Below are positions 3,239 to 11,202 of a stretch of DNA of 33,140 nucleotides, in pieces. The notes under the pieces are model-generated. The model had not been told where the DNA came from. It saw only the letters and a program-made list of their open reading frames with translations, and ran no database searches. Position 1 is the first letter of the stretch, and each line of letters begins with the position of its first letter. A program made the position numbers and the translations under genes. The stretch is taken from the NCBI GenBank assembly GCA_040752595.1, contig JBFMGX010000027.1, positions 1 to 33,140 of the forward strand, written 5' to 3'. The DNA comes from Candidatus Zixiibacteriota bacterium (GTDB lineage Bacteria; Zixibacteria; MSB-5A5; WJJR01).

Positions 3239-3264
3239 CATGGGTCTGAAGACCCATGGCACCA
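3239..3264 (+). repeat. REP-like palindrome, GGGTCT family (variant CATGGGTCT)
   Basis: CATGGGTCT-GA-AGACCCATG (3239-3258) is a perfect 9-bp inverted repeat followed by the family tail GCACCA. It differs from the other copies by a compensated change (CAC to CAT and GTG to ATG), so the pairing is kept. It lies between gmhA and the GGGP-synthase-like gene. A degenerate half of the other palindrome family (GCCATACGCCCCTAC, 3284-3299) follows immediately. Confidence 0.85.
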
Positions 3265-6776: not shown

Positions 6777-7409
6777 TCAGAGCCACTCGGGGAAATGCGC
6801 CGCCAGCACGGCGCGGACGTCATCATAGGCGAAACCGCGCCGGGCCAGAAAACTGAGGAGACGGTGCTTGACCTTCTCCTTGTTGCCACCGGAGGCAGTC
6901 AGGCGGGGCAGCCGGGCGGCGATCAACTCGCGCAATGCCTCGCGTTCGTCCGTCGGCGTGTACTGTCCTATCGCCCGACCAATCTCGGATTCACCGATTC
7001 CCCTCTGTTTCAATTCATATACAAGGGCCAAACGCCCACGGGGAGAGAGCCGTCGCCGCGTCCCGACCCAGGCATCGGCGAACCGCGCATCACTCTGCAG
7101 ACCATCGGCTTCGATCTTCCCCAACACCGCGTCGATCAAGGCCGGGGAAAACCGCTTGCGTCGCAACCCGGCCGCCAACTCGGCGCGCGACCGCTCACGC
7201 CGGGCCAGAAGCGCAATCGCCGCCTCGCGAATGGCTATCATCTCCAATTCCCGACGCCGCTCCGCCGAGAGAACCTCTCCCTCGGTCACGTCCTGCGCGA
7301 GAATGACCTTGCGCGACAATTCGAACGCGTACATTCCGTCGATGTACACACGTACGCGTCCCGGCCGGGCAGGATGGGTTGAAAGGGCGGTGATGGTGGA
7401 TTCATGCAT
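6777..7409 (-). CDS. recX: Regulatory protein RecX
   Basis: RecX binds RecA filaments and limits recombinase activity. The 210-residue protein is made of the helical repeats of the family: an N-terminal beta-rich segment (VRVYIDGMYAFELSRKVI), then AIREAAIALLARRERSRAELAAGL, IDAVLGKIEADGLQSDARFADAWV and KHRLLSFLARRGFAYDDVRAVL. Start ATG 7409 is chosen because the frame upstream of it is made of REP-like repeat sequence. recX lies between recA and alaS, as in proteobacteria, but about 2 kb of palindrome-flanked DNA separates it from recA, so it is no longer directly downstream of recA. Confidence 0.9.
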   Translation of the reverse strand: MHESTITALSTHPARPGRVRVYIDGMYAFELSRKVILAQDVTEGEVLSAERRRELEMIAIREAAIALLARRERSRAELAAGLRRKRFSPALIDAVLGKIEADGLQSDARFADAWVGTRRRLSPRGRLALVYELKQRGIGESEIGRAIGQYTPTDEREALRELIAARLPRLTASGGNKEKVKHRLLSFLARRGFAYDDVRAVLAAHFPEWL

Positions 7410-7425
7410 GAGAAGCTCTTTGTGC

Positions 7426-7498
7426 CACGGGTCTTCAGACCCGTGTCTGGCAGTCCTCCATGGTGGAAAACACGGGTCCAAAAGAGACCCGTGGCACC
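7426..7498. repeat. Inverted pair of REP-like palindromes (BIME-like)
   Basis: Copy one is CACGGGTCT-TC-AGACCCGTG at 7426-7445, preceded by GTGC, so it points to the minus strand. Copy two is CACGGGTC-CAAAAGA-GACCCGTG at 7471-7493, followed by GCACC, so it points to the plus strand. The two face away from each other with 25 bp between them, the arrangement seen in bacterial interspersed mosaic elements. They sit between recX and the REP-associated transposase. Confidence 0.9.
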
Positions 7499-7508
7499 AG
7501 ATTGGGGA

Positions 7509-8027
7509 TCAGCTGATCTCATCCATCGCCAAATCGTAGTCTGGCCATCCGGCCCAGAAATGCGCGCTCGACCAGCGCCATTCAGTTGCCTCGGCAACAA
7601 GTCCCCTTCTCACCGGGTTGTTGTGAATGTAGGCCGCCAGTTCAGTGGCTCTGCCCGGGTCAGAGACGTTTTGATCAAACCCCGGTCCTGCCTGCCAGAA
7701 TGACAGCGCGGAGTAGCCCGTTTCCTGGAGGCGATTCAACGCATGAAAGCCCACGTTCCGTTTCAGTGCACGAAGAAACTCCGAAATGGAGTGATCGTCC
7801 TTCCGCGGACGAACCAATAGATGAACATGGTCGGGCATGATGACATAGGCCCACAGATCGTATTCGAGCGTGTCGCGGGTCGTCGCGAGTTGTCGTACGA
7901 ATAGAAGCCGGATCACGTCGTCGACAAGCAGCGGGCGCCGCTGATAACAGGAGAATGTCAGGAAGTGCGCGTGACCGGGGACATTGTAGTGCCGGATCGT
8001 CTTCCTGTGTGCTGGTTGCGTGTCCAT
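7509..8027 (-). CDS. REP-associated tyrosine transposase (RAYT), IS200/IS605-like Y1 family
   Basis: The 172-residue single-domain protein is a Y1-type HUH enzyme that cuts and joins single-stranded DNA at hairpins. It shows the N-terminal RRHYNVPGHAHFLTFSCY-type start (here IRHYNVPGHAHFLTFSC), the HUH motif in MPDHVHLLVRP (H67, H69) and the catalytic-tyrosine helix AAYIHNNPVRRGLV (Y133), followed by WRWSSAHFW, a typical RAYT tail. All catalytic residues are present, so it may be active. It lies among multiple copies of a GGGTCT palindrome inside the recA-recX gap. Family members are thought to spread or maintain REP sequences, which makes these palindromes its probable substrate; that link is inferred from position. 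Confidence 0.93.
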   Translation of the reverse strand: MDTQPAHRKTIRHYNVPGHAHFLTFSCYQRRPLLVDDVIRLLFVRQLATTRDTLEYDLWAYVIMPDHVHLLVRPRKDDHSISEFLRALKRNVGFHALNRLQETGYSALSFWQAGPGFDQNVSDPGRATELAAYIHNNPVRRGLVAEATEWRWSSAHFWAGWPDYDLAMDEIS

Positions 8028-8040
8028 TGCGAGGTCCGGA

Positions 8041-8065
8041 CACGGGTCTAAAGACCCGTGGCACC
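8041..8065 (+). repeat. REP-like palindrome, GGGTCT family
   Basis: CACGGGTCT-AA-AGACCCGTG (8041-8060) is a perfect 9-bp inverted repeat with the tail GCACC. It lies between the RAYT start and the upstream gene, whose TAG stop (8048-8050) is inside the stem-loop. Confidence 0.92.
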
Positions 8066-8662
8066 AGGGATGTCCGAAAGGCGCAGCATGTTGATGATCT
8101 GTTGATCCGTGTACTCGCCCGTTAGGAAAAGTTCGTAGACCTGATCACCTTTCGAGTTCGGCTCCTTCAAGTAGCCGCGGTTCGACTTCCACATGGCCAG
8201 CAGTTTCGTTCGGACTGTATCTACGCAGGTCTCGAATTGCCCTACCCATTCGGGATTGCTCACGGTCGAATCTGGGTCTTTCTGGTGATGTAGATAGGTG
8301 TTGATGCGATCCCAAGAACTGCAGACCCACTCGAAATCAAAGGGAACATTCGAGCGTGTCAGACCGTTGGCCTGAAGCAGGAGCCTCGTGAAACGCAGCC
8401 GTTTCTCAAAGTCAGGGTCGACGCGGCGGATCATCCGAAGAACGACCTTCGGCTGATAGTCGCTTCTCCTAAGGTAGAGGTCGGGCTTCTTGGGATTCAG
8501 AACGAGCACCAGAAAATCTACAAGCGTTCGTTCCAAAGCACAACGCACCTCGAACGCAGCGTAGAATAGGTTCTGCAAGGTGTCCGTCTCTCGGAGCTTC
8601 TCGGCGCGCGTCAGGTAGCCGGTCGTCGTTACTTGGTAATCATCCGGTGCGTGAATGTACAC
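8048..8662 (-). CDS. Hypothetical helical protein in the recA-recX gap
   Basis: No family is recognised. With a GTG start at 8662 the product is about 204 residues, mostly helical and charged, without signal peptide or membrane segments. Notable stretches are LQNLFYAAFEVRCALERTLVDFL near the N-terminus, which has the look of a HEPN-like helix pair, and MLRLSDIPGATGL at the end. The open frame continues upstream of 8662, but that part is encoded by another REP palindrome (8689-8708) and lacks a start with a ribosome site; a GGGAG lies upstream of the GTG. The last residues and stop codon come from the palindrome at 8041-8060. Palindromes on both sides suggest it arrived or was fixed together with the repeats. 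Confidence 0.6.
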   Translation of the reverse strand: MYIHAPDDYQVTTTGYLTRAEKLRETDTLQNLFYAAFEVRCALERTLVDFLVLVLNPKKPDLYLRRSDYQPKVVLRMIRRVDPDFEKRLRFTRLLLQANGLTRSNVPFDFEWVCSSWDRINTYLHHQKDPDSTVSNPEWVGQFETCVDTVRTKLLAMWKSNRGYLKEPNSKGDQVYELFLTGEYTDQQIINMLRLSDIPGATGL

Positions 8663-8684
8663 CCCCTGCCACGTCTCCCGTCTC

Positions 8685-8708
8685 GTGCCACGGGTCTTCA
8701 GACCCGTG
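8685..8708 (-). repeat. REP-like palindrome, GGGTCT family
   Basis: CACGGGTCT-TC-AGACCCGTG (8689-8708) is a perfect 9-bp inverted repeat preceded by GTGC, so it is oriented to the minus strand. It separates the unknown gene from the lipoprotein gene. Confidence 0.92.
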
Positions 8709-8808
8709 CGCCTACATGGTGGACCGTGCCTTTGCAGTTGCATCCGAGGCGACGACTGACACGGTGTGTTCGTTCATCGCGCTCCGACCAGCCGCACTCG
8801 AAACGCTG

Positions 8809-9243
8809 TCAACGAAAACGGATCTCATATCGAGTGATCGACTCCTGCAAGAAGCTGTGGCCCCATCCCAGCAGCCGGCCCTCCTTGAAGACAAGCGGAA
8901 CGAGTTCATCATCCGAAATGGCACCGTCTTGCCGCTTGAGCTCAGCGTAGTAGTAGAAGACGTCGAGCGTATCCCGCGCGCCAGCATATATTTCGGTCTT
9001 GTACGGATTGCTCAGCACCTGTGTCTGTCTCCGGGGGTTGAGGGGCCCGACCTCCCACTTGTTGCTGATCTCAACAACCTCACTTCCCATTGCTGCCAGA
9101 GCCGAGTCTTGCGACATTCCCACTTTGAGCGACTGGAGGCGTATCCGGTTCCTGGCCCGAAACCGCTCCATCTGAGCTCCCATCCCGGCGCATCCCAGCA
9201 GAGCCGTCAGTATAAGTAGCAAGGCCATCGTGTTCTTCATCAT
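8809..9243 (-). CDS. Small lipoprotein with BamE/SmpA-like domain
   Basis: The 144-residue protein starts with a lipoprotein signal, MMKNTMALLLILTALLGC, with the lipidated cysteine at residue 18. The segment RLQSLKVGMSQDSALAAMG fits the 'LkvGMskdevlalmG' signature of the BamE/SmpA-OmlA and DUF3192 families, outer-membrane-associated small lipoproteins. A tyrosine-rich strand pair (DVFYYYAELK) and a GWGHSFLQE segment follow. GGAGGGTGG lies just upstream of the tandem ATGs at 9243 and 9240; the second has better spacing. Role in outer-membrane assembly is only suggested by the fold signature. The gene lies in the palindrome-bounded segment between recA and recX. Confidence 0.7.
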   Translation of the reverse strand: MMKNTMALLLILTALLGCAGMGAQMERFRARNRIRLQSLKVGMSQDSALAAMGSEVVEISNKWEVGPLNPRRQTQVLSNPYKTEIYAGARDTLDVFYYYAELKRQDGAISDDELVPLVFKEGRLLGWGHSFLQESITRYEIRFR

Positions 9244-9285
9244 CCACCCTCCAACTCACTCTGCCCCTTTGCCATAGAGATGCTG

Positions 9286-9358
9286 GCGCCACGGGTCTTT
9301 CCGATCCGTGATTCTCACTCCGATCTTCTCCGACACGGGTCTAAAGACCCGTGGCACA
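9286..9358. repeat. Inverted pair of REP-like palindromes downstream of recA
   Basis: A degenerate minus-oriented copy (CACGGGTC...GATCCGTG, 9290-9310) is followed after 23 bp by a perfect plus-oriented copy (CACGGGTCT-AA-AGACCCGTG, 9334-9353, tail GCACA). The arrangement repeats that at 7426-7498. Together the two pairs bound the insertion between recA and recX. Confidence 0.85.
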
Positions 9359-9371
9359 CATGCGAAACGTG

Positions 9372-10436
9372 CTATTTCCCCTTTACGCCTTCCACCTCCA
9401 CCACCGGCGCCGCCTTGATCATTCCCAACTGTGTGCGCACCTTGCGGTCGATTTCGGTGAAGAGCTCAGGATTGCCGGAGAGAAAGGTGATCGCTTGCTC
9501 GCGTCCCTGGCCGATCCGCTGATCGCCATACGAATACCACGAGCCGGACTTCTCCAGAATATTCTCCTTCGCCGCCAGATCGAGCAGGTCGCCGCACTTT
9601 GAGATCCCTTCGCCGTAGATGATGTCGAACTCCGCCTCGCGGAACGGCGGGGCGACTTTGTTTTTCACGACGCGCACACGCGTGCGGGCGCCCCTGACCA
9701 GATCGCCATCCTTGATCGAGGCGATCTTGCGGATGTCCATGCGCACCGTGGCGTAGAACTTCAGCGCGTTGCCGCCGGTCGTGGTCTCGGGATTGCCAAA
9801 CATCACGCCGATCTTCATGCGGATTTGATTGATGAAGACGACCGAAGTCTTGGACTTGGCGATGGTGGCGGTGAGCTTGCGCAGCGCCTGCGACATCAAC
9901 CGTGCCTGCAACCCCATCTGGGGGTCGCCCATCTCGCCTTCAATCTCGGCGCGCGGCACAAGTGCCGCCACGGAGTCGATCACGATCACATCGATGGCGC
10001 CGGAACGGACCAATGTCTCGGTGATCTCCAACGCCTGCTCGCCGGTGTCGGGTTGGGAGATGAGCAGATTGTCGAGGTCGACCCCGAGCTTGCGGGCATA
10101 GGTGACATCGAGCGCGTGCTCGGCATCGATGAACGCCGCATTCCCACTCGACAGTTGCGCCGCCGCGATAATCTGCAGCGCCAGCGTCGTCTTGCCCGAT
10201 GACTCCGGACCATAGATCTCGATCACCCGTCCGCGCGGCACGCCGCCGACGCCGAGAGCGTGGTCCAGTGAGATCGAGCCGGTGGAAATCGTCTCGACCG
10301 TGGGGTCGGCAGTCTCGCCGCCGAGACGCATGATCGATCCCTTGCCGAACTGCCGTTCAATCTGCATCACCGCCGACTCGAGGGCGCGCTTCTTACCGTT
10401 GTCGGACGGCGGCGGCTGCACCGGTGTCTTTGCCAT
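9372..10436 (-). CDS. recA: Recombinase A
   Basis: RecA forms filaments on single-stranded DNA, performs strand exchange and triggers LexA cleavage. The 354-residue protein has the Walker A motif GPESSGKTT (76-84), the Walker B region [16 protein letters not shown], the L1 region [24 protein letters not shown], and the L2 region with [22 protein letters not shown]. The ATG at 10436 has AAAGGA about 9 bases upstream and matches family starts; a TTG at 10520 would add 28 residues and is less likely. A promoter and an SOS-box palindrome lie upstream. Gene order pgsA-pgpA-cinA-thpR-recA on the same strand is conserved-looking. Repeats follow immediately after the stop. Confidence 0.98.
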
Positions 10437-10537
10437 GGCTTCGTCCTTTGCCCCAGCCGTCGCCTGCGACGGGCCGGTCTCTATGGGTTCGGATTCGCTC
10501 TGTTTCCAACCGACAATCAAATCGCTGTCGCCCGGTC

Positions 10538-10592: not shown

Positions 10593-10622
10593 TCCCCAAA
10601 TGGCAGCCGGGCTTAATGGCAA

Positions 10623-10636
10623 GGGGCTAAAGCCCC
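10623..10636. repeat. Short palindrome at the thpR stop codon
   Basis: GGGGCTAAAGCCCC is a perfect 6-bp stem with a 2-base loop. On the minus strand it reads GGGGCTTTAGCCCC, and its central TAG is the thpR stop codon. Confidence 0.75.
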
Positions 10637-11202
10637 ATGTCTGCCGGTTCTTGCAGCGCAACGCTTGAAAGGACCGAATATGCAGCGCCTTTGGGGGAGA
10701 GAATCGAGCGCATAAGATCGATCTCACGGACGGGGATGGGGTCGGAACGATAGCTCATGTGAGAGGCGGCCTTGACCAGGCGATCGGCCGGGCCGGGTTC
10801 ACGCAGGCGTGCCAGAGTGATATGGGCGGAGAACGGACGCGCCTCGCGGGCGAATCCCAACGGCGCCAGTTGATCGTCCATCGCCGTGGCCAGCGGCTTG
10901 AGAATATCGAAGCCCGACTCGATCGCGATCCAAAAGACACGTGCCTTGCGTTCGTTGGGGAAGACACCGAAACCACCGAGCCGAATCTCGAATGGCCTCG
11001 CCCCGGCCGTGGCACGCGCGATGGCATCGGTGATCGGTTGCACCTGATCTTCGCGGATTTCATCGAGGAATTTCAGGGTCAGATGCAGATTGGTCGCCGG
11101 TACCCAACGGGCCGGTGGCCCGGCAGGTCGCAAACGATCAATGATGGCATCGATCTCGGCCTTGACATCATCCGGGAGATTGATGGCGATGAAAGAACGC
11201 AT
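10627..11202 (-). CDS. thpR: RNA 2',3'-cyclic phosphodiesterase (2H superfamily, LigT/ThpR)
   Basis: ThpR opens 2',3'-cyclic phosphate ends of RNA and was first described as a 2'-5' RNA ligase. The 191-residue protein has the two catalytic HxTx motifs of the 2H fold, HLTLKFL (H40, T42) and HITLAR (H127, T129), with the conserved FIAINLP start and FGVFPNERKARVFWIAI in between. It lies between cinA and recA on the same strand, a common location for this gene. The intergenic space to cinA is filled by one compound palindromic repeat. The final residues (DMGL) and stop come from a palindrome, so the C-terminus may have been reshaped. Confidence 0.93.
   Translation of the reverse strand: MRSFIAINLPDDVKAEIDAIIDRLRPAGPPARWVPATNLHLTLKFLDEIREDQVQPITDAIARATAGARPFEIRLGGFGVFPNERKARVFWIAIESGFDILKPLATAMDDQLAPLGFAREARPFSAHITLARLREPGPADRLVKAASHMSYRSDPIPVREIDLMRSILSPKGAAYSVLSSVALQEPADMGL

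Follow-up and report, generated by a model that had tools for sequence, protein, structure and literature searches.

A RAYT transposase gene and its likely REP palindromes between recA and recX of a Zixiibacteriota genome

Genes and palindromes of the recA-recX interval

The stretch of DNA analysed here, called the window, is 33,140 nucleotides long and represents contig 27 of a 2.94-Mb genome of Candidatus Zixiibacteriota in 50 contigs (G000). The interval between its recA and recX genes holds a RAYT, or TnpA_REP, transposase gene and two passenger reading frames, with REPINs at both ends. The REP unit of this genome is GTGC followed by CACGGGTCT-NN-AGACCCGTG, which amounts to 24 nt with a 9-bp stem. 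The features are given below, the REP coordinates including the GTGC tag.

3239-3262, minus strand: outlying REP, GTGC-CATGGGTCT-TC-AGACCCATG, between a SIS-domain gene and a PcrB-like gene
6777-7409, minus strand: recX (RecX_HTH1/2/3), one boundary of the REP/RAYT insertion
7422-7445, plus strand: REP, GTGC-CACGGGTCT-TC-AGACCCGTG, a perfect copy
7471-7497, minus strand: inverted REP with an enlarged loop, GTGC-CACGGGTC-TCTTTTG-GACCCGTG
7509-8027, minus strand: RAYT / TnpA_REP gene, 172 aa (NF047646, Pfam Y1_Tnp)
8041-8064, minus strand: single REP upstream of the RAYT start codon (single-stranded hairpin, z=-5.0)
8048-8743, minus strand: 231-aa reading frame between REPs, a passenger without a Pfam family
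8685-8708, plus strand: single REP, upstream of where the 231-aa frame probably starts
8809-9243, minus strand: putative lipoprotein, a passenger (Pfam DUF3192, E=1.2e-11)
9286-9310, plus strand: degenerate REP with the tag GCGC and a damaged 3' arm
9334-9357, minus strand: REP that pairs with the copy at 9286
9372-10520, minus strand: recA, the other boundary (recA of relatives is 78-90% identical)

The first-pass annotation had placed an intact Y1 transposase amid the palindromes, and the frame is indeed open and matches Pfam Y1_Tnp. Against NF047646, the NCBI model for REP-associated tyrosine transposases, the protein scores 98.3 bits, above the cut-off of 80. It carries the HUH motif MPDHVH (residues 64-69), the pair W111-Q112 and a catalytic-type tyrosine in YIHNNP (133-138), and its best solved relative is the E. 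coli TnpA_REP 4er8 (E=3.6e-6). The two REPs nearest to the gene, 14 nt ahead of the start codon and 15 nt past the stop codon, are in direct orientation, which is reminiscent of the ends of an insertion sequence. Together with the common HUH Y1 superfamily, this arrangement might suggest an autonomous IS200/IS605-type element made up of the gene and these two REPs, with the scattered palindromes as its ends or remnants. Such an element is very unlikely here, as the score for transpos_IS200 is below the cut-off of that model and REP_Tyr_transpos scores better. Furthermore, the gene is present in a single copy instead of several, no second near-identical gene exists (the next paralogue is 49% identical), and the fact that another genus has it at this recA-recX locus as well points to inheritance as a resident gene. 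REPINs also exist elsewhere in the genome with no RAYT gene alongside.

Seven copies of the palindrome had been reported in the window, at 3239, 7426, 7471, 8041, 8689, 9290 and 9334, and all of them were found at these places. As copies of one and the same sequence they hold in part, those at 7426, 8041, 8689 and 9334 being perfect, but those at 7471 and 9290 being altered in the loop or an arm. The copy at 7471 has a 7-nt loop and a stem of 8 bp (CACGGGTC-CAAAAGA-GACCCGTG), and the damaged 3' arm of the copy at 9290 reads CACGGGTCTTTCCGATCCGTG. Five copies in the window lie within 3 mismatches of CACGGGTCTNNAGACCCGTG, compared with 0.03 expected from shuffles. The GCACC tail that had been assigned to the palindrome is real; read on the opposite strand it is (G)GTGC, a tag at the hairpin's 5' foot. 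This foot is present on one side of the hairpin only, and is intact in six of the seven window copies, with GCGC at 9290. Two pairs, 7426/7471 and 9290/9334, are inverted with their tags outward, as was expected of BIME-like units. The former makes a 76-bp REPIN directly downstream of the RAYT stop codon (z=-6.5 for the single-stranded fold), and the latter a 72-bp REPIN adjoining the recA stop codon.

The outlying copy at 3239 was said to be changed on both arms, and its two changes do compensate each other across the stem, with the caveat that both changed positions are CpG sites, where a pair of independent transitions is less unlikely than at other sites. Covariation across copies and relatives agrees with the wider claim made from this copy. 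Four of the nine stem base pairs are changed on both sides among variants from four genomes, and the covariation score exceeds that of all 500 of 500 shuffles, indicating that the hairpin is conserved more than its letters.

The stop codon of the 231-aa frame lies inside the REP at 8041 and the REP at 8689 falls within its first part; since that part reads through a REP, the real start is probably further in. The DUF3192 protein has a signal peptide with an LLGC lipobox, as read from its sequence. About four insertion sites fall in the 1.96-kb recA-recX gap, for which the Poisson probability is ~1.7e-8 under random placement with 38 sites assumed. Outside the gap, positions 10620-10639 of the window hold CAAGGGGCTAAAGCCCCATG, akin to a AAGGGGCT palindrome family that is also found near three other RAYTs (L007, L009 and L011).

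The palindrome across the genome and in relatives

The palindrome was mapped over the whole genome, as the first-pass annotation had proposed, by counting places within 2 mismatches and using the reversed palindrome as a control, which gave 51 copies and 0, respectively. The GTGC foot is present in nearly all genome copies fetched by a search that did not require it; the 38 perfect copies were searched with GTGC included, and the constancy of the tag is therefore judged on the tag-free retrieval. Outside the tag and hairpin the flanks are nearly unconserved, and a search there for a cleavage or target motif gave weak preferences only (T/G at -1, C at -4). Most copies are intergenic, with 6 of the 38 perfect copies in coding-like frames compared with a background of 71% (P=4e-12, by a crude composition-based gene call). 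At 24 nt and 51 copies, the unit agrees with the published description of a REP as a mostly intergenic palindrome of 20-40 bp in many copies, but its GTGC foot departs from the published GT[AG]G.

Inverted orientation with outward tags and a length of 68-76 bp characterise 15 of the 16 close pairs. As single-stranded DNA these units fold into one long hairpin (z from -6.3 to -8.6), which is what defines a REPIN in the sense of Bertels and Rainey, i.e., two inverted REPs in a unit that folds as a single long hairpin. A half-REPIN variant was also seen (L076, L089 and L094), with an odd end, ...GGGTCTAAAGACCCTGTTGAAAAAG, in place of the second hairpin; this end recurs at several unrelated sites.

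Hairpins that are GC-rich, stable and largely intergenic could also be ordinary intrinsic terminators or mRNA stabilisers whose clustering at a transposase is incidental. This is hardly credible for the present palindrome, as no T run occurs in the 3' flanks, and the reading leaves unexplained the one-sided GTGC foot, the fixed length of the inverted pairs and the concentration of copies at a single RAYT out of ten. The near-absence of the palindrome from congeners would likewise be odd for a general terminator. A secondary, exapted role of the REPs in mRNA ends could nevertheless exist.

The genome carries about ten RAYT genes, and the question of whether another of them is clearly the partner was answered in the negative: only the RAYT at 7509-8027 has CACGGGTCT within 1.5 kb. 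It is thus flanked by a dispersed REP family specific to it, and most of the other RAYTs are flanked by different palindromes, as follows.

Beside the C3 RAYT: GTGG-CCCTGACC-TT-GGTCAGGG, in its whole form GTGG-CCCTGACCTTGGTCAGGG
Beside the C18 RAYT: GTGC/GTGG-CCGCGATC
Beside the C34 RAYT: GTGG-GGCAGGCA
Under C16, two entries: GTGC-GGGTCAGCCC and GTAG-GGGCGGTTC
Beside the C11 RAYT: GTAG-GGTGGGC

The C3 family (L138; G000:C3:49775-50411) is itself dispersed, with about 20 places within 2 mismatches, many with compensated stems, and its GTGG-CCCTGAC foot and stem are retained with related RAYTs of G002, G004, G005 and G006.

Relatives without the transposase do not have the palindrome in equal number, another possibility raised at the outset; the 51 copies here compare with 0 to about 5, and the same-genus species without the RAYT gene have 0-5 tagged copies. 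In G001, of the same genus, the intact 3.4-kb recA-recX interval holds an AAA/OLD-like gene and a SnoaL gene and no RAYT, and the genome lacks GTGC-tagged copies, its only near matches being two with GTGG at the head. In G002, also of the same genus, the cognate RAYT was not found and about 5 copies are present; a weak match downstream of recA proved to be another Y1 transposase, with YIARQEEHH, and not a decayed RAYT orthologue. G005-G008 have 0-1 copies, with a recA-recX gap of 0.4 kb and at most one near match in G005 and G006. RAYT homologues occur in 55 of the 58 genomes of the class, and in the 49 other genomes the palindrome is essentially absent, though nearly all of these carry other RAYTs.

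The strongest support, which the first-pass annotation had not foreseen, comes from G004, from another genus of the same family, which has an orthologous RAYT of 54% identity at the same recA-recX site, in the order recA, REP, small frame, REP, RAYT, REP, frame, recX. The two proteins (L008 in the window, L117 in G004) are sisters with a support of 100/100. The REP stem at the G004 gene is CACGGGCCT/AGGCCCGTG, changed on both arms and compensated, so that RAYT and stem have changed in parallel at one orthologous locus. With the stem changing along with the RAYT and not with recA, the idea that a perfect dyad beside recA is the operator of a regulator, such as an SOS-type site, deserves practically no weight, as the copies lie downstream of recA, and a dimer operator misfits an asymmetric GTGC foot, one-sided tags, 51 copies and inverted pairs of fixed length.

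The suggestion that copy number would follow the presence of this RAYT was borne out in part. It fits the near-absence of the palindrome from G001 and G002, but G004 and G003 depart from it. G004 has the RAYT yet only about 6 copies, of which three are at the locus and the others, lying elsewhere, are weak; having the RAYT thus need not entail amplification. In G003 about 25 CACGGGCCT copies are present, and the cognate RAYT was not found in its 88%-complete assembly, from which the recA-recX locus is missing, including recX and the C-terminal half of recA. Orthologous REP positions in congeners were sought to date the insertions, but the REP flanks in relatives did not align with the genome's own copies. 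A Paludisphaera RAYT of 44% identity (L149) was considered as sharing the REP and rejected, as the stem shares CACGGGT and then diverges (CACGGGTTC..GAACCCGTG).

The content of the recA-recX interval differs from one relative to the next (L117, L131-L134). The RAYT with its REPs occupies it in G000 and G004, the Y1 transposase with YIARQEEHH lies among tandem palindromic repeats in G002, and the interval is empty of genes in G005 and G006. It looks like an insertion hotspot.

The proposed REPtron

The locus is very probably a REPtron, in which a single-copy, vertically kept Y1/HUH RAYT is accompanied by the non-autonomous palindromes on which it acts. The original description of a RAYT among its likely REPs is supported by the family match, by the gene being the only RAYT flanked by CACGGGTCT and by the co-change in G004. 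The RAYT, in effect domesticated, probably recognises and spreads the palindrome. From its homology to TnpA_REP, it should bind a tagged single-stranded hairpin and cut next to it; such action on the tagged hairpin has been established in vitro for the TnpA_REP of E. coli and for group 3 proteins (PMC8266576). Here the element recognised would be the GTGC tag with its 9-bp stem, the candidate single-stranded target being GTGC-CACGGGTCTTCAGACCCGTG, and the cut would be made through the tyrosine. Cutting would then mobilise REPIN units of about 70 bp, each with two inverted tagged hairpins, to intergenic sites, and the single-stranded DNA of replication forks is the likeliest setting for this.

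Tags, stems and known systems

Among 124 related RAYTs for which both flanks were available, 57 are flanked on either side by palindromes with the same stem, compared with 0.0 in shuffled flanks. With no tag assumed, the shared foot was GTGC in 19, GTGG in 10, GTAG in 3 and GTCG in 2, of 45. Over 65 related RAYTs, protein identity is correlated with stem similarity (Mantel r 0.67, 0/500 permutations), and all 21 pairs of at least 60% identity have identical 7-nt stems. In one member (L027, in G044), the RAYT is flanked on both sides by tandem GTGC-CCGTGACC palindromes at a spacing of about 51 bp, and a 22-bp double hairpin lies next to its stop codon.

The W-Q-x-G-x-G-x-D branch comprises 104 proteins, mostly from Planctomycetota and Zixiibacteriota. 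Only 4 of them have Arg at the site equivalent to E. coli Arg104, and no called foot is GTAG; in other RAYT groups Arg104 is kept in 27 of 30 and GTAG feet occur. The loss of Arg104 and the GTGC/GTGG feet thus appear to go together, as an association along the phylogeny. A one-residue code for the tag was tried and rejected: P115 of the W-Q-x-G-[P/G]-G loop was seen with GTGC alone (8/8), but G115 is found with both GTGC and GTGG, and R119, present in the branch wherever the tag is purely GTGG, is also present with many GTGC tags. On the RAYT tree, 6 changes are required to account for the GTGC/GTGG label, and no alignment column separates GTGC from GTGG RAYTs independently of phylogeny. Whether this large branch (WQxGxGxDxN, with Arg104 mostly lost) is as a whole one of GTGC/GTGG REPs, in which tag and stem were re-specified repeatedly with the protein to give up to ten mutually specific REPtrons per genome, is a proposition as apt to hold as to fail. 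If true, the branch-wide re-specification would offer a natural library of orthogonal single-strand hairpin nucleases along with a recognition code.

Knowledge of RAYT-REP recognition and co-evolution rests mainly on GTAG/GTGG cases from enterobacteria and pseudomonads. A genome with about ten RAYTs, most with their own palindrome, and an orthologous recA-recX pair with a stem change on both arms make up a clean natural experiment. As the branch is mostly without the GTAG-contacting Arg and has tags with C or G as the last letter, the code of tag recognition can be tested by comparing or swapping proteins. In the literature, REP feet read GTAG or GT[AG]G, with CGTC in a group that is unrelated (PMC3733652, PMC2817692, PMC6006769), and the degeneracy of the GTAG tag is at positions 2-3 (GYAG, GYRG, GTRG, GTMG, GTGG), with none reported at position 4 (PMC3733652). 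A GTGC foot is not mentioned in PMC3733652, PMC2817692 or PMC6006769, subscription papers and preprints being outside this scope. Provisionally, the GTGC tag in place of GT[AG]G is new for the RAYT branch of Zixiibacteriota and Planctomycetota.

Of the known systems, the group 3 REPtrons of Pseudomonas, Stenotrophomonas and Marinomonas (subclass 2.5 TnpA_REP; Corneloup et al. 2021, PMC8266576; Bertels and Rainey 2011, PMC3116915) share with the present one a short perfect hairpin, a 4-nt foot starting with GT, REP/iREP pairs, a single-copy RAYT flanked by cognate REPs and several specific REPtrons per genome. They differ in the foot (GTAG/GTGG, against GTGC here) and in having hundreds of copies, against about 50 here in a host of another phylum, and the RAYT branch here has the WQxGxGxDxN signature, mostly without an equivalent of Arg104. 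That each tnpA_REP has its own REP family, and that several REPtrons per genome are possible, is already established (PMC6006769). The E. coli REPtron (subclass/group 2.2, TnpA_REP 4ER8) is alike in its HUH-Y1 protein with W-Q and Y..NP motifs, its tagged hairpins and its BIME-like pairs, but here the stem has no bulge and the tag is GTGC. The Arg104 region makes contact with the GTAG motif in E. coli, and R104 is described as well conserved in the REP-associated subclasses (PMC6006769, PMC8266576); by motif alignment, Q119 and S122 take the place of the tag-contacting H101 and R104 in the window RAYT. The GTAG- and CGTC-tagged REP superfamilies (Di Nocera et al. 2013, PMC3733652) are likewise intergenic tagged palindromes of 20-40 bp with dimers in opposite orientation, the GTAG families also being linked to RAYTs, but the GTGC tag belongs to neither superfamily. 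Set beside these systems, the REPtron is ordinary in kind, with a variant tag and an unusually clear co-change of RAYT and REP.
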